Source: Georgenia sp. M64 (GTDB lineage Bacteria > Actinomycetota > Actinomycetes > Actinomycetales > Actinomycetaceae). From it: a stretch of 64,000 bases of DNA. The stretch covers positions 3,258,599 to 3,322,598 of the forward strand of contig NZ_CP145809.1 in assembly GCF_038049925.1 (NCBI RefSeq), read 5' to 3'. Positions 28,969-44,941 of the stretch are shown in pieces. The notes beneath the pieces are model-generated. The model searched no databases, was not told where the DNA came from, and saw nothing but the letters and a program-made list of their open reading frames with translations. Each line of letters starts with the position of its first letter. The stretch's first letter is position 1. The position numbers were made by a program, and so were the translations under genes.

Positions 28969-29931
28969 TCAGCGGGGTACCACGCCGGCGCGGGCCATGA
29001 CGGCACGGAAGCGGTCGACGTCCCAGGCGTCCACCCACGTCCACCGGACGACGCCGCCGACCACCAGCCGGAGCCGGTCCTCCCGCTGCTTCTCCCGCCA
29101 CAGGGCCTCGGCTCCGCCGGCCCCGTACTTCGTCCGGCCGTCGAACTCGCCGGCGAGGCGCAGGTTCTCCCACCGGAAGTCGGTCCGGGCCACGAAGCCT
29201 TCGGCGTCCCTGAACTCGCGCTGGAGGTCGGGCAGAGGAAGGCCGAGCTCCATCATGCGCGCACGGCTGACGGACTCCCCCACCGACTCCGACCGGCCGT
29301 CGGCGGCCAGCACCACCGCCCGTGCGCGTCGCGCGCCCCTGGCACCGCTGACCTGGTCGAGCTCGACCATGAGGTCCTCGTGCGTCGCGGCGCCCGTGCG
29401 GAGCGCATGGTCCGCAGCAGGCAGCGCCGAGGCCAGTGGTCGACCGCGCGCGAGGTCGACGACGGTCCGGGCGACGGATGTGACGAGCACGCCGCCGATC
29501 GAGATCACGGTGGGGATCGTCCGCACGCGGTGCCGCCGGATCCCGGCGGACGACCGCCCGCCACGCGCAGCGTCGGAGGTGACGTGCACCTGCTGCGGAG
29601 CCGGCCCGACGATCGGTAGCCCGTGGAGCACAGCGGCCGACTCGTGCGACAGCACAGCGGGGCCGCGCAGCCCGTCCACCGTGGCCAGGACGAGGTACCT
29701 GTGCCGCTCGGACACGGTTGCCGCCCGCCACTGCTCACGCTCGATGTACGTCCCTCGCCGCACCCGGAGCAGGTCCGGCCGTCTGGACGCCCTGTCGCGC
29801 GGGACCGCCGTGGCGGAGTCCGGCCGACCGAGACGGACCAGCTCGACGAGGTACGTGCGTCGTCGCCATGCGGAGGAGGCTCGCAGACCGGAGCCACGGC
29901 TGGTGCCGGCACTGTGGACAATCACAGCCAT
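28969..29931 (-). CDS. AbiEi-like winged-helix / nuclease-fold protein
   Basis: 320-aa protein of a family common in Micrococcales. The N-terminal half resembles the AbiEi antitoxin (type IV toxin-antitoxin): a winged helix followed by LLRVRRGTYIEREQW and SHESAAVLHGLP. The C-terminal half resembles the DUF559/Vsr PD-(D/E)XK fold: Asp251, then GEFDGRTKYG with Glu262, Asp264 and Lys268, then REKQREDRLR and a conserved final Trp. No AbiEii nucleotidyltransferase toxin is adjacent, so this is an orphan and a role in toxin control is not supported. The ATG at 29931 lacks a ribosome-binding site; a GTG at 29961 is an alternative. The open frame continues upstream through repeats, which I do not count as coding. 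Confidence 0.7.
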   Translation of the reverse strand: MAVIVHSAGTSRGSGLRASSAWRRRTYLVELVRLGRPDSATAVPRDRASRRPDLLRVRRGTYIEREQWRAATVSERHRYLVLATVDGLRGPAVLSHESAAVLHGLPIVGPAPQQVHVTSDAARGGRSSAGIRRHRVRTIPTVISIGGVLVTSVARTVVDLARGRPLASALPAADHALRTGAATHEDLMVELDQVSGARGARRARAVVLAADGRSESVGESVSRARMMELGLPLPDLQREFRDAEGFVARTDFRWENLRLAGEFDGRTKYGAGGAEALWREKQREDRLRLVVGGVVRWTWVDAWDVDRFRAVMARAGVVPR

Positions 29932-29984: not shown

Positions 29985-30040
29985 GGTGACCGAACGATCC
30001 CCTGGTGACCGAACGATCCCCTGGTGACCGAACGATCCCC
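29985..30040. repeat. 19-bp tandem repeat, three copies (repeat family A)
   Basis: GGTGACCGAACGATCCCCT is repeated at 29985-30003, 30004-30022 and 30023-30040 (last base missing). Its reverse complement matches 43248-43264 in the second locus with a single mismatch over 17 bases. Confidence 0.92.
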
Positions 30041-30057
30041 GCACACCGCTCTAACTC

Positions 30058-30284
30058 GGCAACGGAGGGATCGCTCGCACGCAGGACCCCCTGCCCATGG
30101 CAACAAAGGGATCGCTCGCACGCAGGACCCCCCTGCCCATGGCAACAAAGGGATCGCTCGCACGCAGGACCCCCCTGCCCATGGCAATAAAGGGATCGCT
30201 CGCACGCAGGACCCCCGGCCACCGGCGACAGAGGGATCACTCCCGCGGGCAACCGGCTCTCAGTGGCCGCACAGGGATCGCTCA
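30058..30284. repeat. 41-42 bp periodic array with AGGGATCGCTCG core
   Basis: The 12-mer AGGGATCGCTCG or a close variant begins at 30066, 30107, 30149, 30191, 30232 and 30273, spacing 41, 42, 42, 41 and 41. Units one to four are nearly identical over their whole length, including the flank CGCACGCAGGACC and CCCATGGCAA; the last two keep the core and the period but diverge between. The array fills the 389-nt gap between the prs stop and the start of the AbiEi-like gene. No gene is seen within it. Confidence 0.93.
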
Positions 30285-30320
30285 CGCGCCGGCCCCCGAG
30301 CCCCCGAGCACCCGGTCGAG

Positions 30321-31301
30321 TCAGGCGTTGCCCTCGAACAGCGAGGTGACGGAGCCGTCGTCGAACACCTCACGGATCGCGCGAGCGAGCAGCGGGGCGA
30401 TCGGCAGCACCGTCAGCTGGGGGAAGTGCTTGTCCGCGCTGATCGGGAGCGTGTCGGTCACGACCACCTCGCGCGCGCCGGACTCGGAGAGCCGCTGCGC
30501 CGCGGGGTCGGACAGCACCCCGTGCGTCGCGGCGACGATGACGTCGGAGGCGCCGGCGGCGAGGACCACCTTGACGGCCTCGGCGATCGTCCCACCGGTG
30601 TCGATCATGTCGTCCACGAGCACCGCGGTGCGGCCCTTGACGTCACCGACCACCCGGTTGGCCACCGACTGGTTCGGCCGGCTGATGTCGCGGGTCTTGT
30701 GCACGAACGCCAGCGGCACCCCGCCCAGGCGTGCGGCCCACTGCTCGGCCACACGGATGCGGCCGGCGTCCGGGGAGACCATCGCGGCGTTGGAGGTGTC
30801 GATCCGGGTGCGCACGTAGTCGGTGAGGATCGGCATGGCCCAGAGGTGGTCCACCGGACCGTCGAAGAAGCCCTGCGACTGCGCGGCGTGCATGTCGATG
30901 CTCAGCAGCCGGTCCGCCCCCGCGGTCTTGAACAGGTCGGCCACGAGACGGGCGGAGATCGGCTCGCGCCCGCGGTGCTTCTTGTCCTGCCGGGCGTAGG
31001 GGTAGAAGGGCGCCACCACCGTGATCCGCTTGGCCGAGCCGCGCTTGAGGGCGTCGACCATGAGCAGCTGTTCCATGAGCCACTGGTTGATCGGCGAGGT
31101 GTGCGACTGCAGGACGAACACGTCCGAGCCACGCACCGACTCGTTGAAGCGGACGTAGATCTCGCCGTTGGCGAAGTCGTACGCCGAGGTCGGCAGCAGG
31201 TCGATGCCCAGCTCCTGCGCGACGTCCGCCGCGAGCTGAGGGTGGGCGCGGCCGCTCACCAGGACCAGCCGCTTCTCACCCTGGGTGATGATGCCCGTCA
31301 T
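30321..31301 (-). CDS. prs: Ribose-phosphate pyrophosphokinase
   Basis: 326-aa class I PRPP synthase that supplies PRPP for purines, pyrimidines, histidine, tryptophan and, in actinobacteria, arabinogalactan precursors. Motifs: [16 protein letters not shown], the catalytic flexible loop [22 protein letters not shown], the [11 protein letters not shown] segment and the PRPP-binding loop [13 protein letters not shown]. The ATG at 31301 overlaps the glmU stop as ATGA, the standard glmU-prs arrangement. The gene is followed by the 41-42 bp repeat array rather than a simple terminator. Confidence 0.97.
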
Positions 31302-32947
31302 CGGACGCTGTCTCCTTCTGCCGAGGTACCCGGGGCCGTGCGGTCCCGCGGGGTCGTGGAACTGCCCTGGGCGCGGCGCGCGCGCTCGGCCCGAGCCTGG
31401 GGGGAGAGCCCGCCCGGGGCGACACCGGCGTCCGCGTCGGCCTCGGACATCCCGAGCGCGCGAGCGGCCGCGCGCGCGGCGGCCGTGCCGGGCCGGCGCC
31501 GGAAGACCCAGCCCTCGATGATGCGCTGCGAGGCGCCCGTGACGGAGAGCGCGCCCGGCGGCACGTCCTCGCGCACCGTCGTACCCGCGCCGGTGTAGGC
31601 GCCGTCGCCGACGGTCACCGGCGCGACGAACATGTTGTCCGAGCCGGTGCGGGCGTGCGCGCCGATCCGGGTGCGGTGCTTCTCCACGCCGTCGTAGTTG
31701 ACGAACACGGAGGAGGCGCCGATGTTCGTGCCCTCACCGATGTCGGCGTCACCGACGTAGGTCAGGTGCGGCACCTTGGCGCCGGCGCCGATCCGGGCGT
31801 TCTTCACCTCGACGAAGGTGCCGATCTTGCCGCCGCTGGCCAGGTGGGTCCCCGGCCGCAGGTAGGCGAACGGCCCGACGTCGACGCCGTCCTCGAGGAC
31901 CGCCGACGAGCCGTGCGTGCGGCAGACGGTCGCCCCGGCGCCGACGGTGACGTCGGTGAGCGTCGTCTCGGGCCCGAGGGTCGAGCCCTCGCCGACGCTC
32001 GTCGACCCGTGCAGCTGGGTACCGGGCAGGAGGGTCACGTCGCGCGCGAGCTCGACGTCGACGTCGACCCAGGTCGTCGCGGGGTCCACGACCGTCACGC
32101 CCGCCCGCATCCACTCCTCCACGGTGCGCCGGTTGAGCTCGACGCCGAGCGCCGCGAGCTGGGCGCGGTCGTTGACCCCCTCGACGAGCCAGGAGTCCTC
32201 CACGGAGATGGCCTGGACCCGCAGCCCCTTGCCGTGGGCGAGCGCGACGACGTCGGTGAGGTAGACCTCGCCCTGGTCGTTGGCGCGGCCGACGCCGCCG
32301 AGCGCCTCGCGCAGGACCGCGGCGTCGAAGACGTAGGTGGAGGTGTTGATCTCGCGGATCTCCCGCTGGGCGTCCGTGGCGTCGCGCTCCTCGACCACGC
32401 CGACGACGGCGCCCGTGCCCTCCTCGCGCAGGATCCGCCCGTAGCCGTACGGGTCCTCGACCGTCGTCGTGAGCACCGTGACGGCGTTGGCGTCCTCGGT
32501 GTGGGCGCGCAGGAGCTCACCGAGGGTGTCCGCGTCGAGCAGGGGCGTGTCGCCCGCCATGACGACGACGGCGCCGGACAGCACCGGCGACTCCGCGGAG
32601 TGGTCAGGGACGCCCGGACCCTGGTGCCCGGCGACCGCGGCGCCGAGCGTGACGGCGTCGAGCGCCCCGAGCGCCACCTGGACGGCCCGTCCGGTGCCCG
32701 GCACGGCGTCCTGGTCGACGATCATGACGCCGGGGTCGACCTCACGGGCGTGGGCGGCGACGGCGTCGCGGCCGTGCCGCACGACCACGGCCAGGCGCGC
32801 CGGCGCCAGGCCGCGCGCGGCGGTGAGGGCGTGGCCCAGGAGGCTGCGGCCCCCGATCCGGTGCAGCACCTTGGGGGTGCGCGACTTCATGCGGGTGCCC
32901 TCACCTGCGGCGAGGACGATGACGGCAGCAGGTTGGGTCGGGCTCAC
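31298..32947 (-). CDS. glmU: Bifunctional UDP-GlcNAc pyrophosphorylase / glucosamine-1-phosphate acetyltransferase
   Basis: Makes UDP-N-acetylglucosamine for peptidoglycan. The N-terminal uridyltransferase has [21 protein letters not shown] and [11 protein letters not shown]; the C-terminal left-handed beta-helix acetyltransferase has hexapeptide repeats, [34 protein letters not shown] and [17 protein letters not shown]. At 549 aa it is longer than the usual 450-495. It has an insert of about 25 residues before GDTP ([20 protein letters not shown]) and a basic, disordered tail of about 50 residues. The start is the GTG at 32947 with GAGGGAG upstream. It overlaps prs by 4 nt. Confidence 0.96.
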
Positions 32948-33027
32948 GCCGGCTCCCTCGGTTGTCTCCGCCCGTGATCGCCCCGGGCGTCGTGCACGGA
33001 TCACTCTAGCGGCGTCCGGACGACCGG

Positions 33028-33099
33028 CTCCGCCCCCAGGATTCGAACCCGGACCGCAAGGCACCAAAGGCCTGCGTGCTGCCGTTACACCAGGGCGGA
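33028..33099 (-). tRNA. tRNA-Gln (anticodon UUG)
   Basis: The minus strand forms a 72-nt cloverleaf: acceptor TCCGCCC/GGGCGGA with discriminator G73, T arm CCGGG-TTCGAAT-CCTGG, and anticodon loop CTTTGGT giving UUG. G73 and the UUG anticodon agree with glutamine identity. The 3' CCA is not encoded. It lies upstream of glmU on the same strand. Confidence 0.93.
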
Positions 33100-33202
33100 C
33101 CGCGCGTGCGCGCCCGACAAGTGTGCCAGCACCGGGCGCTCTCACCGCCTGCCGCGGGCTCGTTCCGGCCTGCCCCTTGCCGCGCACGGCATGATGGGGG
33201 GC

Positions 33203-33994
33203 ATGTCCGAGCCGCGCCGCGCCCCGCGGGTGCGCATGACCGGGAGCCAGCGGCGTGAGCAGCTGGTCACGGTCGGGCGCGCGCTCTTCGCCGAGAAGGG
33301 CTTCGAGGGCACCTCGGTGGAGGAGATCGCCGCCCGGGCGGACGTCTCCAAGCCGGTCGTGTACGAGCACTTCGGCGGCAAGGAGGGCATCTACGCCGTC
33401 GTGGTCGACCGCGAGGTGCAGCGCCTGCTGGGCATGCTCACCGAGCAGCTCAGCTCCGGCGGCCACCCCAAGGACGTCGTCGAGCGGGCGGCGCTGGCCC
33501 TGCTGGACTACATCGAGGACAACACCGACGGCTTCCGCATCCTCGTGCGCGACTCCCCGGTCGCGCAGGCGACCGGGACGTTCTCCTCGCTCATCGGCGA
33601 CGTCGCGAGCCAGGTCGAGCACCTCCTCGGCGCCCAGTTCCGCGGACGCGGTCTCGACCCGGAGGCCGCCCCCATGTACGCGCAGATGCTGGTCGGCCTC
33701 ATCGCGCTCACCGGGCAGTGGTGGCTCGAGGCGCGCCACCCGGCCAAGCGGGACGTCGCGGCCCACATCGTCAACCTCGCCTGGAACGGGCTCTCCGGTC
33801 TGCAGCGCGACCCGCGCCTGCGTTCGCCGGAGTCCGGCCCCCGGGCGCAGCGGCCGCCGCGGGTGGCGACTCCCGGTGAGGCGACGCCGAGCCCCTCGAC
33901 GCCGAGCCCCTCGTCGCCCAGCCCCTCGACACCGAGCACGTCGACGACACACGAGCCGAGATCCACACCACCGACGCCGTCCGTGCCGGCCTAG
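33203..33994 (+). CDS. TetR family transcriptional regulator
   Basis: 263-aa one-component repressor. The N-terminal helix-turn-helix is canonical ([49 protein letters not shown]). The ligand-binding domain runs to about residue 200. The C-terminus is a Ser/Pro/Thr-rich tail of about 45 residues encoded by a 15-bp tandem repeat (33883-33942), not part of the TetR fold. A tetR gene beside glmU is conserved in actinobacteria (for example Rv1019 beside Rv1018c). The ATG at 33203 is chosen because CATGAT lies 7 nt upstream (leaderless pattern); ATG 33191 is an alternative. Target and ligand are unknown. Confidence 0.9.
33883..33942. repeat. 15-bp tandem repeat in tetR 3' end
   Basis: Four consecutive 15-bp units based on GACGCCGAGCCCCTC, progressively diverged, encode the Thr-Pro-Ser-Pro-Ser repeats of the TetR tail. 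The frame is preserved. Confidence 0.85.
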
Positions 33995-33998
33995 CCCC

Positions 33999-34346
33999 TC
34001 AGGCCAGCGTCCACCCCGGGACGAGCGTGTGGTAGTCGAAGAACCGGCTCGCCACCACGTGCAGGGCCACGTAGTACGCGGCCACCGCCAGGTACGTCAG
34101 CACCAGCTTGGGCAGCGTCGCCTGCAGGAGGACCAGCATGAGCAGGGCCGCCGCCACCAGCGGGACGGCGATCACGGCCGTGGCCGAGCCGCCCAGCATG
34201 GTCGTCACGACCCCGAGCGTGACGACGGCGAAGCCGACGGCGGCCGCCTCGAACCAGCGCAGGCGACGGAACAGCGAGCGGTCACCGAGGAAGACGCTCA
34301 GGGCCGTCAGCGCCACGGCCACCGCGTACACGACGAGGTCCGGCAT
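33999..34346 (-). CDS. Small membrane protein of unknown function
   Basis: 115-aa protein with four predicted helices covering nearly its whole length ([55 protein letters not shown] and [19 protein letters not shown]). I do not recognise the family. It ends 4 nt from the convergent tetR stop. The ATG at 34346 lacks a ribosome-binding site but CATGAT ends 6 nt before it, matching the leaderless pattern seen repeatedly here; a GTG two codons upstream (34352) is the alternative. Codon usage (strong GC at third positions) supports that it is a real gene. Confidence 0.65.
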
Positions 34347-34458
34347 GGGCACATCATGTCCGCGACAGCCGTCGCCGTGGGGGACGTTCGGCTCAAGATT
34401 TCGGCAAGAACCCCGCCCTCCCACCGGGGCGCACCCCACAAGGTCTCTCGACGTCAAG

Positions 34459-34464
34459 TAATCT
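34459..34464 (+). promoter_or_regulatory. Leaderless-type -10 box of marR-family gene
   Basis: TAATCT is separated by exactly 6 nt from the ATG at 34471. Upstream lie TCGACGTCAAG and CTCAAGATTTC, AT-richer than the surroundings and possible autoregulatory sites. Confidence 0.55.
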
Positions 34465-34470
34465 TCGGGG

Positions 34471-35112
34471 ATGAGCGCAGCGCAGCCGAACGGGATCGCC
34501 GTCCCTGAGGGCGCCCGTCCCGCGGCGGCCGAGGCACCCGCGCCCACGGAGGGGCCTGCTGTCCCTGGTGACGTCCGGCCCGCCGCCACGGACGAGGTCG
34601 ACCGGATCGTGGCGGCCTGGCAGCGCGAGCGCCCGGACCTCCAGCCGCTGCCGCTGCACATCTTCTCCCGTGTCACCCGCCTCGCCCGGCACCTCGACCT
34701 CGCCCGGCGGGCGGCCTTCGCCCGCCACGGCATCGAGGCGTGGGAGTTCGACGTGCTCTCGGCGCTGCGCCGCGCCGGCGAGCCCTACGAGCTCACCCCG
34801 GGCCGCCTCATCGCCGAGACGCTCGTCTCGTCCGGGACCATGACCAACCGGATCGACCGGATGGTCGACCACGGCCTCGTCGTGCGAGCTGCGGACACCC
34901 AGGACCGCCGGGTGGTCAAGGTCCGCCTCACCGCCGAGGGCCGCTCCCGGGTCGACGCGGCGATGTCCGCGCTCCTGGCGTCCGAGCGAGAGCTCCTCGC
35001 CGGGCTGTCCGCGGAGGACCACGACCGGCTGCGCGACCTGCTGCGCGCGGTCCTGCTGCCCTTCGACCGCGGCCCCGTCCCGCCGGCACGGCCCGGCGGC
35101 CCGTCCGTCTGA
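34471..35112 (+). CDS. MarR family transcriptional regulator
   Basis: 213-aa winged-helix regulator. A disordered Ala/Pro-rich head of about 45 residues precedes the MarR domain: LPLHIFSRVTRLARHLDLARRAAFARHGIEAWEFDVLSALRRAGEPYELTPGRLIAETLVSSGTMTNRIDRMVDHGLVVR is helix-turn-helix, and ADTQDRRVVKVRLTAEG is the wing with the conserved DxRxxxV. It belongs to the group that regulates stress or small-molecule responses; the target is unknown. The convergent ABC-F gene and the divergent small membrane gene are possible targets. The ATG is preceded by a -10 box rather than a ribosome-binding site. Confidence 0.9.
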   Translation: MSAAQPNGIAVPEGARPAAAEAPAPTEGPAVPGDVRPAATDEVDRIVAAWQRERPDLQPLPLHIFSRVTRLARHLDLARRAAFARHGIEAWEFDVLSALRRAGEPYELTPGRLIAETLVSSGTMTNRIDRMVDHGLVVRAADTQDRRVVKVRLTAEGRSRVDAAMSALLASERELLAGLSAEDHDRLRDLLRAVLLPFDRGPVPPARPGGPSV

Positions 35113-35140
35113 CCGGGCCCGCGGCCCGTCCTGGCGGGTG

Positions 35141-37051
35141 CTACCCCGCCGCCTCGGCGGCGAGCAGCCACTCCTCCTCGAGGCTCTCGTGCTCGGCCTC
35201 GGCCGCCCGCGTCTCGGCGGAGAGGGTGGTCAGCCCGTCGACGTCGCCCGCGGCCGAGGCGGCGGCGAGCCGGTGGTGCAGGTCGTCGATGCGCGCGGAC
35301 ACCTTCGCGAGCTGGCGCTCGAGCCGTGCCATCTCCTTGCGGGCGGCCCGCTGCTCCGCGGGCGTGAGGCCGCCGGCGCCGGTGTCGCTCCCGGCGGTGC
35401 GGTCCTCGGCGACCGGGGCCGGCGCCGCGGCCGACTGCCGCTCGAGCCGGTGGCGCAGCTGCAGGTACTGGTCGATGCCGCCCGGCAGGTCGCGGACCGA
35501 GCCGTCGCCGAGCAGCGCGACCTGGTGGTCGGTGACCCGCTCGAGGAGGTAGCGGTCGTGGCTGACGACGACGAGGGTCCCCGGCCACCCGTCGAGGAGG
35601 TCCTCGACGGCGGCGAGGGTGTCGGTGTCGAGGTCGTTGGTGGGCTCGTCGAGCAGGAGCACGTTGGGCTCGGCGACGAGCAGCCGGAGCAGCTGCAGGC
35701 GCCGCCGTTCCCCGCCCGAGAGGTCGGCGACGCGCGTCCAGGCGCGTTCACGGGTGAAGCCCAGGCGCTCGACGAGCTGGCCGGCGGTCAGCTCCTTCCC
35801 GCCGACCTCGACCCGGCCGCGGACCTCCTCGACCGCCTCGATGACCCGCAGGTGCGCGACGTCGTCGAGCTCGCGGGTCTCCTGCGACAGCTGGGAGACC
35901 TGCACCGTCTTGCCACGCCGCACCCGGCCCGCCGTGGGGTGCTGGGTCCCGGCGAGCAGGCGCAGCAGCGTGGACTTGCCGGCGCCGTTGACCCCGACGA
36001 CGCCCACCCGCTCCCCCGGCGCGAGGCGCCAGGTGACGTGGTCGAGCACGACGCGCGTGCCGGTGCCGGTGCCGGTGCCGGTGCCGGTGCCGGTGCCGGT
36101 GCCGACATCCTCGCCCGGGCGCAGCGGGTAGGTGACGGTGACGTCCTCGAGGTCGAGGACGTCCTTGCCCAGCCGGGCGGTGGCCAGCCGGGTCAGCTCG
36201 AGGGGGTCGCGCGGGGGCGGCTCGTCGGCGATGAGCGCGGCGGCGGCGTCCAGCCGGAACTTCGGCTTCGAGGTCCGCGCCGGCGCACCGCGGCGCAGCC
36301 AGGCGAGCTCCTTGCGCACGAGGTTGACGCGCTTGTCCTCCATGACGGCGGCGGTGCGGGCCCGTTCGGCGCGCGCGAGCATGTACGCGGCGTACCCGCC
36401 GTCGTAGGTCTCGACCCGGCCGGCGACGGGCGAGCGACCGCCCGCGCCGTCGTGGCCGGGCACGACCTCCCAGACCCGGGTGCAGACGGCGTCGAGGAAC
36501 CACCGGTCGTGGGTGACGACCACGAGGGCACCGGTGCCGCGCGAGTACCGCTCCTGCACGTGCCGGGCGAGCCAGTCCACGCCCTCGACGTCGAGGTGGT
36601 TGGTCGGCTCGTCGAGGATGAGGACCTCGGCCGGGGTGGTCAGGACGCGGGCCAGGGCCACCCGCCGCCGCTGGCCGCCGGAGAGGGTGCCGACGTCGGC
36701 GTCGAGCCCGACGTCGGCGAGGAGGCCCTCGTGGATGTCGCGGACGGACGCCTGGGAGGCCCAGACGTGCTCGTCGACGCCGGGGTGGACGACGTCACGC
36801 ACGCGGGTGCCGGGCGTCAGGTCGTCGGCCTGGACCAGGACGACCACGCGGGTGCCGCCCGCGCGGGTGACCCGGCCGGTGTCCGGGGTCGTCTCCCCTG
36901 CCAGGACGCGCAGCAGGGTGGACTTCCCCGCGCCGTTGCGCCCGAGCACCCCCACGAGCATCCCGTCGTCCAGGCCCAGCGTGATGTCGCCGAGCAGCGG
37001 GCGCGAGCCCACGACGACGCCCACGCCCTCGATCCCGAGCAGGTGCGCCAT
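35141..37051 (-). CDS. ABC-F family ATPase (Uup-like)
   Basis: 636-aa soluble protein with two ATP-binding cassettes and no membrane segments; ABC-F proteins act on the ribosome as translation factors or antibiotic-protection proteins. First cassette: Walker A GRNGAGKST near residue 38, LSGGQRRRVALARVL, LDEPTNHLD. Second: GVNGAGKST, LSGGERRRLQLLRLL, LDEPTNDLD. The linker between them is interrupted by (Gly-Thr)8 from a hexanucleotide repeat. The C-terminal coiled coil (EQRAARKEMARLERQLAKVSARIDDLHHRL) is typical of Uup, which also binds DNA. It is convergent with marR, 28 nt apart, with a short GC hairpin between. Role in resistance cannot be judged from sequence. Confidence 0.92.
   Translation of the reverse strand: MAHLLGIEGVGVVVGSRPLLGDITLGLDDGMLVGVLGRNGAGKSTLLRVLAGETTPDTGRVTRAGGTRVVVLVQADDLTPGTRVRDVVHPGVDEHVWASQASVRDIHEGLLADVGLDADVGTLSGGQRRRVALARVLTTPAEVLILDEPTNHLDVEGVDWLARHVQERYSRGTGALVVVTHDRWFLDAVCTRVWEVVPGHDGAGGRSPVAGRVETYDGGYAAYMLARAERARTAAVMEDKRVNLVRKELAWLRRGAPARTSKPKFRLDAAAALIADEPPPRDPLELTRLATARLGKDVLDLEDVTVTYPLRPGEDVGTGTGTGTGTGTGTGTRVVLDHVTWRLAPGERVGVVGVNGAGKSTLLRLLAGTQHPTAGRVRRGKTVQVSQLSQETRELDDVAHLRVIEAVEEVRGRVEVGGKELTAGQLVERLGFTRERAWTRVADLSGGERRRLQLLRLLVAEPNVLLLDEPTNDLDTDTLAAVEDLLDGWPGTLVVVSHDRYLLERVTDHQVALLGDGSVRDLPGGIDQYLQLRHRLERQSAAAPAPVAEDRTAGSDTGAGGLTPAEQRAARKEMARLERQLAKVSARIDDLHHRLAAASAAGDVDGLTTLSAETRAAEAEHESLEEEWLLAAEAAG
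36057..36104. repeat. Hexanucleotide repeat, eight copies, in ABC-F gene
   Basis: GTGCCG is repeated eight times without error; on the coding (minus) strand it encodes alternating Gly and Thr just before the second ATP-binding cassette. Loss or gain of units keeps the reading frame. Confidence 0.97.
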
Positions 37052-37190
37052 CTAGCGGATCTCCCTCGTCGTCATGGCACCAGTGTCCCAGGGCCGCGCG
37101 GGCGTGGACGACGGGCGGGGCCGGCCCGGCCCGGCGGGCGCCGGGCAGCCGCCCGATCCTCCCCGGACCCGGGCGCAGCCCGGGCCCGGC

Positions 37191-37628
37191 TCAGCGGTGC
37201 CGGAGACGCTCGGTCAGACGTGCCAGGTCCTTGGTCATCGCGCGCCTCATCGCCGTCGCCATGACGGGGGCGGCGACCTTGGCGAAGCCGCTGGGCGCGC
37301 CTCGGTTGCGCAGCCGCATCCGGGTCCCGCCGGGCACCGGTTCCCAGGTGTAGGTGGTCTCCATCGGGAACGGACCGTCGGCGGTGCGCATGACCAGCCG
37401 CCGTCCCGGCTCGAGCGCGACCACCTCGTAGGTGTAGCTCAGCCGGCGTCCCAGGAACGTGGCCACGAAGTCCATCCGCGAGCCCAGCGCCAGCGGCGGC
37501 GGCGTGCGCCGGTCGACGGAGACGATGTTGGCGTACCACGTCGGCGCGTTCCCCGGGTCGCCGGCGTAGGCCGCGACCACCTCGGGCGGGTACGGGATGA
37601 CGGCCTCCACCTCGACGTCGACCTCCAT
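37191..37628 (-). CDS. SRPBCC family protein (polyketide cyclase/START-like)
   Basis: 145-aa single-domain helix-grip protein of the SRPBCC superfamily. The pattern VEAVIPYPPEVVAAYAGDPGNAPTWYANIVSVDRRTP at the N-terminus, central strands and a long C-terminal amphipathic helix (MTKDLARLTERLRHR) match the polyketide cyclase/dehydrase group, which binds hydrophobic ligands; many members have no known activity. The start is the ATG at 37628. CATACT ends 7 nt upstream, suggesting a leaderless mRNA. It is in the same direction as the ABC-F gene but separated by about 140 nt. Confidence 0.85.
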   Translation of the reverse strand: MEVDVEVEAVIPYPPEVVAAYAGDPGNAPTWYANIVSVDRRTPPPLALGSRMDFVATFLGRRLSYTYEVVALEPGRRLVMRTADGPFPMETTYTWEPVPGGTRMRLRNRGAPSGFAKVAAPVMATAMRRAMTKDLARLTERLRHR

Positions 37629-37821
37629 GCCACCGAGTATGCGCCCGAGCCTCGGGGCCGAGCACACCCGGGGCATCCGAGCAGCACCCGCGCCGGGACG
37701 CCTCGCCGCGCCCTGCGGGCCGCACCGAGGCGCCGAAGGTCGCCGGGCCACCGATATGCGCCGGTCCGCCAGTCGCGACGGAGCGAGCTCCGCCCGACGC
37801 CCCGGGCACGCGGACTCGCGG

Positions 37822-37843
37822 TAGGGTGCGGAAAGCGCTCGCC
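37822..37843 (+). promoter_or_regulatory. Candidate promoter and LacI-type operator upstream of arabinofuranosidase gene
   Basis: TAGGGT (37822-37827) is followed at once by GGAAAGCGCTCGCC (37830-37843), whose AGCGCT centre and flanks resemble LacI-family operators of actinobacterial glycoside hydrolase genes. It lies about 100 nt before the arabinofuranosidase start, in the 312-nt gap after the SRPBCC gene; nothing else was recognised in that gap. Confidence 0.4.
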
Positions 37844-37940
37844 AGCCACGGCTTGACCGGACAAACTCGGGCGCGGACCGTTTCATCCTGTGTGGCGGAC
37901 ACCGCCCCCGCCCAGCCCAGCCGCAGACGAAGGAGTCCCC

Positions 37941-39536
37941 TTGGCCAGCTCGACCGCCGCGACCACCGGTACCGCAGACGTTCCCGCCGACGACGCCCCC
38001 GGCGCCGCCGCGGCAGCCGCGGACCGGGCCGCCACCCTCGTCCTCGACCCGGCCTTCAGCGTCGGTCCCGTCCGCCGGCGGACCTTCGGCGCCTTCGTCG
38101 AGCACCTGGGTCGCTGCGTCTACACCGGCATCCACGACCCCGGTCACCCCACCGCCGACGAGGACGGCTTCCGTGGCGACGTCATCGACCTCACGCGCGA
38201 GCTCGGCGTCTCCACGGTGCGCTACCCGGGCGGCAACTTCGTCTCGGGCTACCGGTGGGAGGACGGCATCGGGCCGGTCGACCAGCGCCCGGCCCGGCTC
38301 GACCTCGCCTGGCACTCCACCGAGCCGAACACCGTGGGGGTCGACGAGTTCATGCGCTGGGCCAGGAAGGCCGGCGTCGAGCCCATGATGGCGGTCAACC
38401 TCGGCACGCGCGGCGTCCAGGAGGCCCTGGACCTCCTCGAGTACTGCAACATCGCGTCGGGCACCGCGTGGTCGGACCTGCGCCGGACCAACGGCACCGA
38501 GGAGCCGCACGGCGTGCGGATGTGGTGCCTGGGCAACGAGATGGACGGCCCCTGGCAGATCGGGCACAAGACCGCCGAGGAGTACGGCCGCCTCGCCACC
38601 GAGACGGCCCGAGCGATGCGCATGGTCGACCCGGGCCTCGAGCTCGTCGCGTGCGGCAGCTCCAGCACCTCGATGCCGACGTTCGGCGAGTGGGAGCGCA
38701 TCGTCCTCACGGAGGCGTACGAGGACGTCGACCTCATCTCGGCCCACGCGTACTACTGGGAGGAGGACGGCGACCTCGCCAGCTTCCTCGCCTCGGCGGT
38801 GAACATGGACGGGTTCATCGACGACGTCGTGGCCACCGCCGACGCCGTCCGCGCCGCCCGCAAGCTCACCAAACGGATCCACATCTCCTTCGACGAGTGG
38901 AACGTCTGGTACCTCAACGCGTCCCCGTCCCAGGCACCGAAGGACGACTGGCCGGTCGCCCCGCCCCTGCTCGAGGACCACTACTCGGTGGCCGACGCCG
39001 TCGTCGTGGGCGGTCTGCTCATCTCGTTGCTCCGGCACACCGACCGGGTGCACTCGGCCAGCCTGGCCCAGCTCGTCAACGTCATCGCCCCGATCATGAC
39101 CGAGCCGGGCGGGCGGGTGTGGCGGCAGACGACGTTCCACCCCTTCGCCCTGACGTCGCGGCACGCGGCCGGGGAGGTCCTGCGGGTCAAGCTCGACTCC
39201 CCCACGCACGAGACCGCCAAGTTCGGCGAGACCCCCCTCGTCGACGCCGTCGCCACGCACGACGCCGACTCGGGCGAGGTCGTCGTCTTCGCGGTGAACC
39301 GGCACACCACCGAGCCGGTCACCGTCGAGGTGGACGTGCGAGCCTTCGGCGCCCTCGGCGTGACCGAGGCGCTGACCCTGTCCGCTGACGACCCCTACGC
39401 CCGGGCGAGCGCCGACGACGACACCTCTCTGGCGCCTCGGCCGAACGAGACCGCCACGGCCGAGGGCGGCACCGTCCGCATCGAGCTCCCGCCGGTGTCG
39501 TGGAGCGTGCTGCGACTCGCGCCGGCCGGCGCCTGA
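37941..39536 (+). CDS. abfA: Alpha-N-arabinofuranosidase, glycoside hydrolase family 51
   Basis: 531-aa retaining exo-enzyme that removes alpha-L-arabinofuranosyl groups from arabinan and arabinoxylan oligosaccharides. There is no signal peptide, so it acts inside the cell on imported oligosaccharides. The acid/base residue is Glu200 in WCLGNEMDGPW and the nucleophile Glu319 in ISFDEWNVWY; the (beta/alpha)8 barrel start STVRYPGGNFVSGYRWEDGIGP is intact, and a C-terminal beta domain follows. The start is a TTG at 37941 with AAGGAG at 37930-37935. No sugar transporter or regulator is adjacent: the gene sits alone inside the conserved housekeeping block, probably a lineage-specific insertion. 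Confidence 0.93.
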   Translation: MASSTAATTGTADVPADDAPGAAAAAADRAATLVLDPAFSVGPVRRRTFGAFVEHLGRCVYTGIHDPGHPTADEDGFRGDVIDLTRELGVSTVRYPGGNFVSGYRWEDGIGPVDQRPARLDLAWHSTEPNTVGVDEFMRWARKAGVEPMMAVNLGTRGVQEALDLLEYCNIASGTAWSDLRRTNGTEEPHGVRMWCLGNEMDGPWQIGHKTAEEYGRLATETARAMRMVDPGLELVACGSSSTSMPTFGEWERIVLTEAYEDVDLISAHAYYWEEDGDLASFLASAVNMDGFIDDVVATADAVRAARKLTKRIHISFDEWNVWYLNASPSQAPKDDWPVAPPLLEDHYSVADAVVVGGLLISLLRHTDRVHSASLAQLVNVIAPIMTEPGGRVWRQTTFHPFALTSRHAAGEVLRVKLDSPTHETAKFGETPLVDAVATHDADSGEVVVFAVNRHTTEPVTVEVDVRAFGALGVTEALTLSADDPYARASADDDTSLAPRPNETATAEGGTVRIELPPVSWSVLRLAPAGA

Positions 39537-39539
39537 GCC

Positions 39540-39583
39540 GTCGCCGCGCGCCAGGGCTCCTCCTTGCCCGGGCGCGCGGCGAC
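39540..39583. terminator. Bidirectional hairpin terminator between abfA and ispE
   Basis: A perfect 13-bp inverted repeat (GTCGCCGCGCGCC and its complement; arms 39540-39552 and 39571-39583) lies between the two convergent stop codons and can serve both strands. Confidence 0.75.
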
Positions 39584-39606
39584 CACCACGGCGCGGTCCG
39601 TCCGCC

Positions 39607-40542
39607 CTACGGCCGGCGGCTGTGCACGTGCTCGAGCACCCGCGCACCCGGCACCGGTCCGGTGACGAGGAGGATCTCCCCGGCCACCTCCGCGGCCCGC
39701 ATGACCCCGGCGACGCTGACGGCGTGGGCGTGGTCCAGGGCCAGCGCGGCGACCGTCGGCCCCGACCCGGACACCAGGGCGGCGAGCGCACCCGCGCGGT
39801 CGGCGGCGGCCAGGACGTCGCCGAGCTCGGGCCGCAGCTCCAGCGCCGCCTCCTGCAGGTCGTTGCCCAGCTGGCGGGAGAGCTGGATCGGGTCCCCGGA
39901 GAGGAGCGCGGCGAGGACGGCGTCGTCCAGGCGGGGGGCGGGGCCGTCGTCGAGGTCCAGGGGCTGCAGGCGGTCGTGCTCGCGGAACACCTCGGGAGTC
40001 GAGAGGCCCTCGTCCTGCACCGCGAGGACCCAGTGGTAGGTGCCCCGGCTCATGACCGGGGTGATGAGGTCCCCGCGGCCGGTCCCCATCGCGGACATGC
40101 CGGTCAGGGCGAACGGGACGTCCGCGCCGAGCTCGGACGCCAGCTCGGCGAGCTCGTCACGCGAGAGCCCGGTCCCCCACAGCTGGTCGCAGGCGAGGAG
40201 GGTGGCGGCGGCGTCGGCCGAGCCGCCGGCCATGCCGCCGGCGACCGGGACCTGCTTGGTCAGGCTCAGGTGTGCCCCGGCGCGCGTGCCCGAGGTCTCG
40301 CGCAGGAGGACGGCGGCCCGGACGGCGAGGTTCGTGGCGTCGACCGGCAGGTCCTCCCCGCGGCCGTGGATCTCCAGGCTGATGCCGTCGGCGCGGGTGG
40401 CGACGACGTCCTCGTAGAGGGAGACGGCCTGGAAGACGGTGGCGAGGGGGTGGTAGCCGTCCGGGCGCGGGGCGCCGACGCGCAGGGCGAGGTTGATCTT
40501 GCCCGGCGCGCGGACCTGGACCGCGATGGGGGTGGCCGTCAC
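39607..40542 (-). CDS. ispE: 4-diphosphocytidyl-2-C-methyl-D-erythritol kinase
   Basis: GHMP kinase of the MEP isoprenoid pathway, which phosphorylates CDP-ME at the 2-hydroxyl. The 311-aa protein has [32 protein letters not shown] at the N-terminus, the ATP loop [24 protein letters not shown] and the C-terminal [11 protein letters not shown] motif. The start is a GTG that overlaps the rsmA stop as GTGA, so translation is coupled. rsmA-ispE is the standard actinobacterial pair next to rpfB. Confidence 0.96.
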
Positions 40543-41447
40543 GTGGCCAGCGTGCCAGAGGGGCCCCCGGGTCCGCGCGGGGAGGGCCGGTGCTCGGCGA
40601 TCCTGGCGAAGTCAGCGATGGCGAGCTTCTCCCCCCGTTCGGACGGCTCGACCCCCGCGGCACGGAGCGCCTCCTCCGCCGCCGCGGGCGACCCGGCCCA
40701 CCCGGCGAGGGCGGCTCGGAGCGTCTTGCGGCGCTGGGCGAAGGCGGCGTCGACGACGGCGAAGACCTCCTCGCGGGTCGCCGTCGTCGACGGTGCCGGA
40801 CGCCGGTGCAGCCGCACGAGGGCGGAGTCGACGTTGGGCACCGGCCAGAAGACCGTCCGGGAGATCGTGCCGGCGCGCTCGGCAGAGGCGTACCAGGCGG
40901 CCTTGGCGGAGGGGACGCCGTAGGTGCGCGAGCCGGGCGGGGCGGCGAGCCGGTCGGCGACCTCGGCCTGGACCATGACCAGGACGTCGGTGACGCTCGG
41001 CAGGTTGCGCAGGAGCGTGAGCAGCACGGGCACGGCGACGTTGTAAGGCAGGTTCGCCACGAGGCGGGTGGGCGCCGCGGGCCCGGGCAGGTCGTCGGGC
41101 CCGGTGATGGTCATGGCGTCCGCGGCGAGGACGTCGAGGCGGTCGGCGGCGTCGGGCAGCCGCGCGGCGACCGTCTCGGCGAGGGCCCGCGCGAGCGGCG
41201 GGTCGATCTCGACGGCGACGACGTGCGCGCCCGTCTCGAGCAGGGCGAGGGTGAGGGAGCCGAGCCCGGGACCGACCTCGAGGACGACGTCGCCGGGGCT
41301 CACCCCGCCGGCCCGCGCGATCCGCCGGACGGTGCCCGCGTCGTGGACGAAGTTCTGCCCGAGCGTCTTGGTGGGCCGGACACCGAGGGCGGCGGAGAGC
41401 CGGCGCACGTCGGCGGGGCCGAGGAGGCCGGAGTCGGAGGCGGGCAC
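40539..41447 (-). CDS. rsmA: 16S rRNA dimethyladenosine transferase RsmA/KsgA
   Basis: 302-aa SAM-dependent enzyme that dimethylates two adjacent adenines in helix 45 of 16S rRNA during small-subunit maturation. Motifs: [17 protein letters not shown], the SAM-binding loop [17 protein letters not shown], the catalytic [12 protein letters not shown] and the C-terminal helical domain ([14 protein letters not shown]). The start is the GTG at 41447. No ribosome-binding site is present, but TAGGCT ends 6 nt upstream, so a leaderless transcript is likely. The stop overlaps ispE. Confidence 0.96.
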
Positions 41448-41453
41448 GCCGCG

Positions 41454-41459
41454 AGCCTA
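41454..41459 (-). promoter_or_regulatory. Leaderless-type -10 box of rsmA
   Basis: TAGGCT on the minus strand, 6 nt before the rsmA GTG. Confidence 0.5.
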
Positions 41460-41486
41460 CTGGGGCCGGGATGGCCGGACGCACGA

Positions 41487-41516
41487 CGGCGGCGCCCCCC
41501 TGTGGGGACGCCGCCG
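41487..41516 (-). terminator. Hairpin terminator after rpfB
   Basis: CGGCGGCG and CGCCGCCG pair around an inner CCCC/GGGG segment, 20 nt after the rpfB stop on the minus strand. It separates rpfB from rsmA, which has its own -10 box. Confidence 0.65.
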
Positions 41517-41535
41517 GTGGTCGTGCGCGAGGTGC

Positions 41536-42765
41536 CTAGAGAAGCCCGAGCGTGGACGCGCAGTGCGGCCACTGGCCCCAGCCGGAACGGGCCTGGAGCG
41601 TCTGGGCGCGCATGGTCTGCTCGGCCGGGGACGCCTGGGAGGGCAGGCCGGAGCCGCCCACGGACGCCCAAGTGCTCAGCGAGAACTGGTACAGGCCGTA
41701 GTACAGGCCGTTCGCGCTCACGGCCGTGGGGTTGCCGCCGGACTCGCACTGGGCGAGCGCGGCCCACACGCCGGACGTCGGCGCGGCCGGGGCCGACGGC
41801 GCGGGGGCCGCTGCGGGCGCAGGCGCCGACGACGTGGCAGGCGCGGGCGCCGGCTCGGGAGCGGGTGCCGGGGCGGGACGCTCCTTGGTGCCCACGGCGA
41901 TGACCTTGTCCACCGGCGCGGTGGTGACCTCGTCGCCGGTCTGGGCGGAGTGCACCTCCTTGCCGTCGACGGTCACGACGGAGAAGGTGAGGGTCCGCAC
42001 GCCGGCCTGGCCCTCCTGGACCACCTTCGTCTGGCCCTCGTACAGCGCGTCGTCCGCGCGCTCGACGGTCGCGAAGTCGACCGGCTGCTCCTCGGTCCGC
42101 TCCCCCCGCACGACGCGGGTGACGACGACCTCGGGGGTGCCGTCCTCGGCGGTGCCGATGACGACGCGGTCGATGCGCGAGACCTCGACCCCGGCGGCCT
42201 CGAGGGCGTCCGCGAGGTAGGCCTCACCCTCGAGGGTGACGCGCTCGGTGGTGCCGTCGGCGACGACGTCGACCTCCCCGTCGATGACGAGCGGGAGGTC
42301 GAGTGCGTCGCGGGCCAGCGAGCGGGACGCCGCGACGGTGACGTCGCGACCCGACTCGAACATGCTCCGGACGAGCTCACCCTGGGTCTGCGCGGTCGTC
42401 CACACGTCCTCGGGCTTGCCGTCGACGTCGACCGTGACCTGCCGGGCCGTGCGGAAGACGATGTCGGCGCCGTCGCGCAGTGCGGTGTCGGCGGCCGGCG
42501 CGAGGAGGTCGTGGCCGCGGACCTCGATGCCCTGCTCGTCGAGCAGGCCCTGGACCGAGCCGGCGAACGTGGTGAGGGTGTGGCTCTGGCCGTTGATCTC
42601 GAGATCGATGCTCTTGTGGGCCTGGGCCGCGACGGCGGAGCCGGCGACGAGGACCGGGACGATGCCCAGCGCCAGCCAGCCGAGGCGGCGCCTGCGGGGG
42701 GCCTCGACGCTCGTGGCGGAGGCGGGGGTGGTGTGCTGCGGGTTCTGGGGGCTCTTGGCGCTCAC
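41536..42765 (-). CDS. rpfB: Resuscitation-promoting factor RpfB
   Basis: 409-aa exported muralytic enzyme that cleaves peptidoglycan and stimulates resuscitation of dormant cells. Order: basic head, one membrane helix (LGWLALGIVPVLVAGSAVAAQA), two or three DUF348 repeats (ALDLPLVIDGEVDVVADGTTERVTLEG and others), a G5 domain (TRVVRGERTEEQPVDFATV to VVTVDGKEV), a Pro/Ala linker, and the C-terminal Rpf domain WAALAQCESGGNPTAVSANGLYYGLYQFSLSTW with catalytic Glu and paired Cys. The start is a GTG at 42765 with GAAGGA upstream. A 19-bp sequence at 42939-42957 recurs before the paralogue at 44573. rpfB followed by rsmA and ispE is the conserved order. Confidence 0.94.
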   Translation of the reverse strand: MSAKSPQNPQHTTPASATSVEAPRRRRLGWLALGIVPVLVAGSAVAAQAHKSIDLEINGQSHTLTTFAGSVQGLLDEQGIEVRGHDLLAPAADTALRDGADIVFRTARQVTVDVDGKPEDVWTTAQTQGELVRSMFESGRDVTVAASRSLARDALDLPLVIDGEVDVVADGTTERVTLEGEAYLADALEAAGVEVSRIDRVVIGTAEDGTPEVVVTRVVRGERTEEQPVDFATVERADDALYEGQTKVVQEGQAGVRTLTFSVVTVDGKEVHSAQTGDEVTTAPVDKVIAVGTKERPAPAPAPEPAPAPATSSAPAPAAAPAPSAPAAPTSGVWAALAQCESGGNPTAVSANGLYYGLYQFSLSTWASVGGSGLPSQASPAEQTMRAQTLQARSGWGQWPHCASTLGLL

Positions 42766-42938
42766 GGGGTTCCTTCGACGCGCTGCCCGGTCACAGAGCG
42801 ACGTCGGTGCTCGGCTCGCACCTCGGCGCGGCCGGCCGACCCCGGGGGCGGGGCGGCACGACGTGTCGGTCTGATCCGGCTGTCGGGCGGGCCGGAGGAG
42901 GCCCACGGTGCGGCCCGAGCTGGCGAGCCGAACGCAAC

Positions 42939-42957
42939 CGTAACCGATTCGTTATCT
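42939..42957 (-). promoter_or_regulatory. 19-bp motif shared with the SLT paralogue (copy 1)
   Basis: CGTAACCGATTCGTTATCT, identical to 44616-44634. It lies about 172 nt before the rpfB start. The minus-strand reading contains TTACGG and ATAACG half-sites, a layout like that of MtrA or similar OmpR-type regulators that control rpf genes in relatives. Confidence 0.55.
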
Positions 42958-43187
42958 TCCGGTCTACGTGCGTTGCGCCACACGAGCGGACGCGCGCTCG
43001 CCTCGTCCGGCGGACGCTCGTCCGTGCACCGGCGTCCAGCGACTGCACGGCCGACGGCGATGCCGCCCAATGCCCCGGACTCCACACCGGCCCGGCGCAC
43101 GCACGCCCGGCGGCGTGCCCGCCCACCGCTGAGCCGCCCAGCGGCAGGACCGCCGGCCCATCGCTCGTTCTCCGGCCGTGGCCTCGC

Positions 43188-43365
43188 GCGCGAGCGATCC
43201 CTCCGTCGCCGAGTGAGAGCGCCGTTGCCGAGCGAGAGTGGTGTGCGGGGATCGCTCGGTCACCGAGGGATCGCTCGCGCGAGCGATCCCTCCGTTGCCG
43301 AGCGAGAGCGCCGTTGCCGAGCGAGAGTGGCGTGCAGGGATCGCTCGGTCACCGAGGGATCGCCC
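43188..43365. repeat. 89-bp tandem duplication of repeat family A
   Basis: Two consecutive 89-bp units (43188-43276 and 43277-43365) differ at only a few positions. Each holds GCGAGCGATCCCT, two GCCGAG(T/C)GAGAG copies, GGGATCGCTCGGTCACC and GAGGGATCGC(T/C)C. 21 bases at 43279-43299 match 30058-30078 exactly in reverse complement. The 659-nt gap between the two muralytic genes holds this element and the 19-bp motif; no gene is seen in the remainder (about 42958-43187). Confidence 0.93.
43265..43292. repeat. Perfect 28-bp palindrome at the unit junction
   Basis: GAGGGATCGCTCGC is directly followed by its exact reverse complement with no spacer. It spans the junction of the two 89-bp units and could extrude as a cruciform or form a very stable RNA hairpin. 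Confidence 0.95.
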
Positions 43366-43424
43366 GGCAGTGATCAGTCAGCGACAGAGACCCATCACCA
43401 GGGCGCTCGGTCGCGCCCCGGCGC

Positions 43425-44634: not shown

Positions 44635-44781
44635 GGAGGGAAGCCGTCGGGTGGACACCTGTTGATGTGATCTTCTCCACACACCTGCCGGACCAAGGTC
44701 CGTGGACATGCCCCGGACGGCCGGCGCCGGGTGTGCCACACGGCGCTGACCTGCAACGACACGAGGCTCCCACCGGCTCCG

Positions 44782-44898
44782 GAGCGGACGGTCGTCCGCG
44801 ACGAGCACCCGCGAGCCTCACGGGCACCTGCGGCGGTTCCGAGCGGACGGTCGTCCGCGACGAGCACCCGCGAGCCTCACGGGCACCTGCGGCGGTTC
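44782..44898. repeat. 59-bp tandem duplication with internal hairpin
   Basis: Two copies (44782-44840 and 44841-44898) are identical except at the last positions; a third, strongly diverged start follows at about 44900. Each carries GCGGAC-GGTC-GTCCGC, a 6-bp stem with a tetraloop. It lies in the 368-nt gap between the tatD stop and the SLT-paralogue start; no gene was recognised in that gap. Confidence 0.93.
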
Positions 44899-44941
44899 GG
44901 CGCGGACCGTCCTCGATGAACGCCGCCGCCGTCCCGCCGAT

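Follow-up and report, generated by a model that had tools for sequence, protein, structure and literature searches.

Two Repeat Arrays in the Window

The window analyzed here is a stretch of 64,000 nucleotides from Georgenia sp. M64 (contig NZ_CP145809.1, positions 3,258,599 to 3,322,598), and it holds two arrays of short intergenic repeats that belong to one family of palindromic elements. Array 1 lies between a gene that we, like an earlier note on this DNA, take to be prs and an orphan gene resembling AbiEi, while array 2 lies between two muralytic genes (Table 1). The earlier note had seen the same modules at both places, each 3' of a minus-strand gene, and had predicted many further copies. 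Direct reading confirms that 30058-30078 and 43279-43299 are reverse complements of each other along 21 bases and that 43248-43264 repeats the 19-bp unit at 29985 with a single mismatch, and the gene calls, which are script-made reading frames and not annotation, place both arrays 3' of a minus-strand gene. Array 1 contains a 19-bp tandem repeat (2.9 copies, 29985-30040) and a 42-bp tandem repeat (3.8 copies, 30058-30216). Array 2 is an 89-bp tandem repeat (2.0 copies, 95%, 43187-43363), and its units span 43186-43385, a little past the end given before. A scan of the window with a 10-mer, allowing one mismatch, gave 17 matches vs. 14.4 expected; since the 10-mer by itself does not exceed chance, the signal lies in clustering and length.

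Anatomy of the Repeat Family

The unit of the family is a 16-bp site, GKGATCGYTCGGYNAC, that recurs every 19 bp. An element is ordered as left, left, short centre, right, right, where the inner left unit is a conserved variant that forms the core (CCGAGYGAGAGYGGTSTRC), and further units are often appended outward at 19-bp steps. Alignment on the core listed 43 rows, of which one spurious row was removed (L083 4794, three mismatches; L-numbers label the fetched stretches or loci compared). The remaining 42 copies yield a consensus of about 70 bases, CCGARCGATCCC-TYC-GTYGCCGAGYGAGAGYGGTSTGC-N-GGGATCGYTCGGYNAC-RGA-GKGATCGTTCGG, in which some positions are invariant. A 16-bp profile scan of 456 kb of fetched stretches found 222 units in 35 clusters of at least three; the 112 matches outside clusters, isolated or paired, were taken as background. 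Same-strand steps measure exactly 19 bp in 97 of 134 cases and 40-42 bp in 15, and divergent left-to-right pairs across the centre have exactly 28 bp between unit anchors in 32 of 37.

Repeats of 40-42, 89, 138, and 144 bp within single arrays hold locus-specific spacers and thereby show local tandem duplication. The number of units is unequal between orthologous arrays of the two species in which the family occurs. Steps of 40-42 bp with locus-specific spacers were observed at L058, L061, L071, and L081 (the last two orthologous), so that this step length recurs at unrelated loci. The four-site palindromic anatomy with its conserved core, and the clade restriction described below, are additions to the earlier description.

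Copy Number and Clade Restriction

Motifs were counted in the genome of the window (G000, 4.18 Mb), in that of a sister species (G006), both within Georgenia, and in further relatives, with the motif read backward as control. In G000, AGGGATCGCTCG has 27 matches (13 on the plus and 14 on the minus strand; control 0), and GGGATCGYTCG has 73 (38 and 35; control 1 and 0), where base composition predicts 8.7. The latter motif occurs 45 times in G006, 2-6 times in seven other members of the genus, and 0 to 20 times in 50 further relatives. In G000 its matches form 23 clusters, four of which (at 185.9, 417.0, 1563.0, and 3799.8 kb, with five of the 73 matches) were set aside as chance or coding. The other 68 matches fall within arrays, and with core-only copies included there are 19 loci, the arrays at 931 and 934 kb being one locus split by an IS21-type element. 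The predicted abundance was thus borne out, mostly in intergenic arrays.

The tandem pattern GGGATCGYTCG-N8-GGGATCGYTCG has 23 matches in G000, eight in G006, and none in the other 211 of 213 family genomes, which together with the control counts of 0 and 1 rules out a chance origin. The core alone, with up to two mismatches, was found at 26 places in G000, 20 in G006, and 0-4 in the seven other genus members (backward control 0-3); a match with two mismatches at 3,330,171 has no surrounding units. The core plus a following GGGATC (up to two mismatches) was present in one of 396 genomes of the order, namely G000, in a sample without other genus members. No matches were obtained in the named-genome collection genome_contigs, which may omit G000 and its near relatives. 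A phage or plasmid origin was considered and rejected, as two patterns gave no matches in viral_contigs, array 2 was unmatched in plasmids, and array 1 was unmatched in phages. A comparable family in Georgenia ruanii was likewise dismissed, the motif CGGACGTGAMGCGTC being confined there to one place. A report of such a repeat family was not found in the literature, as far as its text was available. The family is real and clade-specific, and it departs from repetitive extragenic palindromic (REP) sequences in the features tested.

Inheritance and Insertions

At 14 of the 19 G000 loci an element lies at the orthologous place in G006. The five loci without one are the second array of L061, L067, L069, L072 (array 2 of the window), and L076. 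Conversely, L094 and L090 of G006 have no counterpart in G000, which carries other DNA at the latter. Thirteen ortholog pairs were aligned, including L073, whose right half has been moved by an insertion in G000; since identical 154-base rows were merged, L082 (= L074) is outside these pairs and all counts made from them. Orthologous copies differ at a mean of 11 of 78 positions, vs. 23 between non-orthologous copies, and the nearest copy across genomes is the orthologue at 10 of the 13 loci, so that there is no sign of recent spread. The arrays present in both species have been inherited vertically.

At empty sites the edges of the indels lie tens to more than 100 bases from the edges of the element. 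No consistent target-site duplication was found at the filled and empty sites compared, and the three cleanest empty sites show overlaps of 5-7 bases, as in deletions between short repeats. The defined ends with target-site duplication expected of an insertion sequence or a miniature inverted-repeat transposable element (MITE) are therefore lacking. According to the earlier note, a family of just two copies, or copies inside a known insertion sequence, would have spoken against its proposal; none of the 19 loci was found inside an insertion sequence, and the idea that the arrays are part of one is rejected because two of them are themselves cut by one. The locus at 931/934 kb is split by the IS21-type element (L065:5350-7510; G000 931.6-933.8 kb), which encodes IstB (E 2.7e-75) and a Mu-type transposase. 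A second element, at 3,545.8 kb, is cut at the end of its core by about 1.54 kb (L073:3450-4986; 3545.8-3547.4 kb) containing two IS3-like frames (family assigned by eye), with GTGTGCG flanking the insertion on both sides. The G006 orthologues of both arrays, L093 and L181, are intact. Elements of the family may be preferred insertion targets.

Sequence Conservation and Tests of Pairing

Within the 13 ortholog pairs, alignment columns were ranked by strength at the other loci, both loci of each pair being excluded. Strong columns had changed in 41 of 550 cases, middle columns in 54 of 274, and weak columns in 48 of 190 (strong vs. weak, Fisher p 1.3e-9). Identity within elements is 0.879 (1000 positions) vs. 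0.745 in the flanks (1765 aligned positions, about 85 bases per side), and elements are more alike than their flanks in 12 of the 13 pairs, in one of them only just. This excess conservation is the pattern that selection on the consensus would give. Both features expected of a protein-binding array, fixed spacing and a consensus conserved beyond its surroundings, are thus present.

The consensus is a near-perfect long palindrome, with 79.9% of cells pairing in register and 30-44% when the arms are slid. Pairing was tested in 38 rows, after removal of four without the first right unit. The paired cells (79.9%) compare with 81.4% after shuffling, 497 of 500 shuffles pairing at least as well, and in all 500 the number of pairs changed on both sides is no lower than in the real rows. 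RNAalifold on the same rows gave -6.1 kcal/mol and no compensatory change in any of 13 pairs. An alternative register, left unit with first right unit, likewise showed no covariation; taken by themselves, the three spacer positions show a weak trend in the opposite direction (block p 0.06). A covarying RNA hairpin is therefore rejected in both registers, that of the symmetric full palindrome and the alternative one, and the missing covariation with pairing below the shuffled level argues against selection for a hairpin, whether in RNA or as a cruciform. When 12 elements were folded as RNA, z ranged from -0.98 to -6.81; it was below -3 in seven and between -0.98 and -1.86 in five, both array 2 copies among them. 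Stable folding of single copies follows from the inverted units and is by itself no evidence of function. In the stretches of the window scanned, Rfam gave no match near the gathering score. The conserved helix with compensatory changes that marks an intrinsic terminator or RNA stabilizer is absent, and the earlier suggestion of an mRNA 3' stabilizer is not supported.

Genomic Context

Raw classing of 21 rows gave nine co-directional, eight convergent, and four divergent gaps, but counted the IS-split locus twice, with insertion-sequence genes as neighbors. With that locus classed by the intact L093, and with L078/L183 added, the 21 loci comprise 10 co-directional, seven convergent, and four divergent gaps. 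The convergent share (7/21) is not in excess (p 0.14), and an earlier convergent excess (8/20, p 0.044) was withdrawn since an insertion-sequence gene had served as neighbor. Eight of the 10 co-directional loci are closer to the 3' end of the upstream gene (p 0.055); the null for this test takes in array-bearing gaps too. The expected bias to gene 3' ends is therefore suggestive only. The G000 contig starts near the origin, as dnaA lies at position 257, and 15 of 19 loci are in the origin half (p 0.0096; Kolmogorov-Smirnov p 0.027), both tests having been picked after the map had been seen. The pattern and core searches of G000 found no locus between 1.83 and 2.87 Mb, in the terminus region. 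Relative to replication the core shows no preferred orientation, running in the same direction at 9 of the 19 loci.

The neighbors of the arrays include transporters, a penicillin-binding protein, argininosuccinate synthase, ornithine carbamoyltransferase, photolyase, WhiB, UreD, and others, with no shared function. No gene family lies beside more than two arrays among the neighbors examined. A recurrent neighbor gene was rejected as partner: in G000 only major facilitator superfamily (MFS) transporters (L058, L066) and FAD-linked oxidases (L063, L077) repeat, each beside two arrays.

Features and Genes Around the Window Arrays

Table 1. Repeat units of both arrays and the adjoining genes (positions in the window).
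Feature	Position	Strand	Remark
Array 1, three perfect outward units GGGATCGTTCGGTCAC, 19-bp steps	29986-30001, 30005-30020, 30024-30039	-	unit score 23.2 each
Array 1, core CCGAGTTAGAGCGGTGTGC, the variant inner unit, one mismatch vs. family core	30041..30059	-	
Array 1, units in opposite orientation every 41-42 bp (30067, 30108, 30150, 30192, a weaker one at 30233, and 30274) with locus-specific spacer	30067..30289	+	
Array 2 copy a, left-pointing unit	43186..43201	-	
Array 2 copy a, core-type variant unit GCTCTCACTCGGCGAC, one step outside core	43205..43220	-	low score 3.0
Array 2 copy a, core CCGAGCGAGAGTGGTGTGC	43228..43246	+	
Array 2 copy a, two right-pointing units (43248, 43267)	43248..43282	+	
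Array 2 copy b, left-pointing unit 43275-43290 and low-scoring variant 43294-43309	43275..43309	-	
Array 2 copy b, core CCGAGCGAGAGTGGCGTGC	43317..43335	+	
Array 2 copy b, right-pointing units (43337, 43356, 43370)	43337..43385	+	
prs (presumed), array 1 directly 3' of gene	30321..31301	-	reading-frame call
Orphan AbiEi-like gene, array 1 in upstream region	28969..29931 (start uncertain)	-	
DUF348-G5-SLT muralytic gene, array 2 directly 3'	43425..44573	-	domain match
DUF348-G5-Transglycosylas gene (presumably Rpf-like), downstream of array 2	41536..42765	-	domain match

The AbiEi-like protein has no Pfam or NCBIfam match and shares 36% identity with a plasmid protein annotated as an AbiEi-family antitoxin. 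Its gene sits between prs and a dienelactone hydrolase gene in both G000 and G006, with an N-terminal reading frame that is unlike between the two, and among the neighbors compared it lies beside one array only. Among eight named relatives examined, none showed a relative of it. The 9-mer TTGTCCACA, which we take to be DnaA-box-like, lies on the minus strand at the start of the gene (29913-29921) and is also present in G006.

Where both 89-bp copies of array 2 join, 43252-43305 forms two 27-base arms that are 89% complementary and have no spacer; a palindrome of this length is expected to be unstable. A 59-bp tandem repeat (2.3 copies, 93%) was observed upstream of the SLT gene at 44774-44911. 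Of the first six named loci that best match a window protein, five come from Georgenia species. In the named relatives eight of 80 loci were looked at and gaps were inspected in five. By eye, no array was seen in the SLT-Rpf gap of four named Georgenia, nor behind prs in two of them (L097, L099). The SLT-Rpf gaps of G. ruanii (L099:7233-7833) and Georgenia sp. SYP-B2076 (L100:5660-6252) hold short repeated motifs unrelated to the array family.

Comparison With Known Repeat Systems

Mycobacterial interspersed repetitive units (MIRU) resemble the Georgenia arrays in being actinobacterial, intergenic, dispersed, and variable in tandem copy number, but they consist of direct repeats of about 40-100 bp and are not known to show the palindromic four-site arrangement. 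The binding sites parS and those of Noc and SlmA are also short conserved duplex sites that are dispersed and enriched toward the origin, whereas the Georgenia sites are long arrays, occur in one clade only, and would be bound by a putative protein; the site sequences themselves we take to be unrelated.

With REPs, bacterial interspersed mosaic elements (BIMEs), and REPINs, which in Gammaproteobacteria and others go with REP-associated tyrosine transposases (RAYTs), the arrays share short palindromic intergenic repeats in inverted pairs and clusters, an uneven distribution among species, and hits by insertion sequences. They differ in the 19-bp ladder, the asymmetric conserved core, the few loci, and the lack of covarying arms, of a consistent GTAG tag, and of any RAYT found. 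A search for the RAYT-type domain Y1_Tnp (PF01797) gave no match at E ≤ 0.001 in nine of nine genus genomes, several of them drafts, other transposase families not being searched; the control search matched in 5 of 14 named genomes, E. coli included. A classical REP/REPIN system driven by a RAYT, as the earlier note had considered, is therefore not supported. GTAG occurs anywhere in 4 of 42 elements and CGTC at the start of the core in 13 of 42. The CGTC-type REPs of Alphaproteobacteria and others are palindromic dimers without a dedicated transposase too, with stems of 8-9 bp, loops of 4-5 bases, and mostly CCA tails, whereas the Georgenia arrays have two 19-bp units per arm (PMC3733652).

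Interpretation of the Arrays

The reading that we favor, and hold at about even confidence, is that the repeats would be clade-specific duplex-DNA sites, most likely for a sequence-specific protein. Behind it stand the anatomy, the restriction to one clade among the genomes searched, vertical inheritance, the conserved consensus, the absent arm covariation, and the mixed neighbors. The regular 19- and 28-bp geometry, the lack of a preferred core orientation relative to replication, and the placement of 15 of 19 loci in the origin half also speak for it. A protein-binding site also fits best among the three roles offered in the earlier note, the protein itself being putative; as a whole, the interpretation in that note is partly supported. 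Every unit would be bound by such a protein, with cooperativity along the 19-bp ladder, and the bound units would build a nucleoprotein node in intergenic DNA. The node might serve as an architectural, segregation, or transcription-roadblock site and not as the operator of a single pathway, while unit number would shift through local tandem duplication. A narrower version would draw on the palindromic four-site ladders, the enrichment in the origin half, and the empty terminus region; in it the arrays are chromosomal sites of an undescribed chromosome-organizing protein (centromere-like or nucleoid-occlusion-like) in one Georgenia clade, with the set under selection and single sites dispensable. 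It seems to us quite unlikely.

Several points weigh against a protein-site reading. That a protein binds the arrays, and what it would do there, we infer. The family is lacking in seven other genus members, hence no general function of the genus depends on it, and single sites are dispensable, since 5 of 19 loci are element-free in the sister species. Gene conversion among copies could also maintain the consensus. A step of 19 bp is about 1.8 helical turns, so that adjacent sites lie on different faces of the helix. Several copies fold very stably as predicted RNA (z to -6.8), the 3'-end bias fails to reach 0.05, and the origin-half bias is weak and its test was chosen after the data were seen.

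Among the alternatives, a REP/BIME-like or MITE-like mobile family, spread in the common ancestor by an enzyme since lost or unrecognized and then expanded in tandem, with any host role secondary, is possible but in our view the less probable account. The sporadic phylogenetic distribution and the differences in presence between sister species would suit it, and two sources describe REPs likewise as dispersed intergenic copies with inverted dimers and clusters, in one class without a dedicated transposase (PMC3733652), and as targets of some insertion sequences (PMC2817692), such as have cut two arrays here. Such a family fits poorly with the missing Y1_Tnp match and tag, with indel edges off the element edges and no consistent target duplication, with orthologues as nearest copies, with conserved consensus positions, and with about 20 loci where REPs usually exceed 100 copies (PMC2817692).

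An RNA-level hairpin, acting through the palindrome as a bidirectional terminator or 3' mRNA stabilizer, we consider unlikely. It is favored by the position of the co-directional loci near upstream 3' ends, by the stable predicted hairpins in 7 of 12 elements, and by ordinary-looking inverted repeats seen by eye behind prs in two named relatives (L098, L099), at the place of the array. However, the arms pair worse than shuffled ones and each obeys the unit motif, 5 of 12 elements including both array 2 copies fold with z no lower than -1.86, convergent gaps show no excess and divergent genes flank 4 of 21 loci, a U tract was not seen by eye, and Rfam gave no match in the stretches scanned. The corrected gene-end count weakens the RNA reading and the protein-site reading equally and so leaves their standing unchanged. 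Operator sites of a specialized regulon appear very improbable. The four divergent loci, one of them beside a WhiB gene, the position of array 1 upstream of the AbiEi-like gene, and the paired MFS transporters and FAD-linked oxidases would suit such a regulon, but a gene 3' end borders 17 of 21 loci on at least one side, five loci differ between the sisters, and the neighbors are for the most part unrelated members of large, common gene families, on which ground this candidate was rejected.

Small dispersed palindromic repeats are often classed as REP relics or RNA hairpins. In this family the hallmarks of REPs (RAYT, tag, and covarying stem) were not found in the searches described above, and the consensus is still kept across two species. 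The family is therefore a clean test case for the question of whether repeats of this kind act as DNA-level protein sites, and the near-identical neighborhoods with and without an array in two sister species offer a natural comparison.

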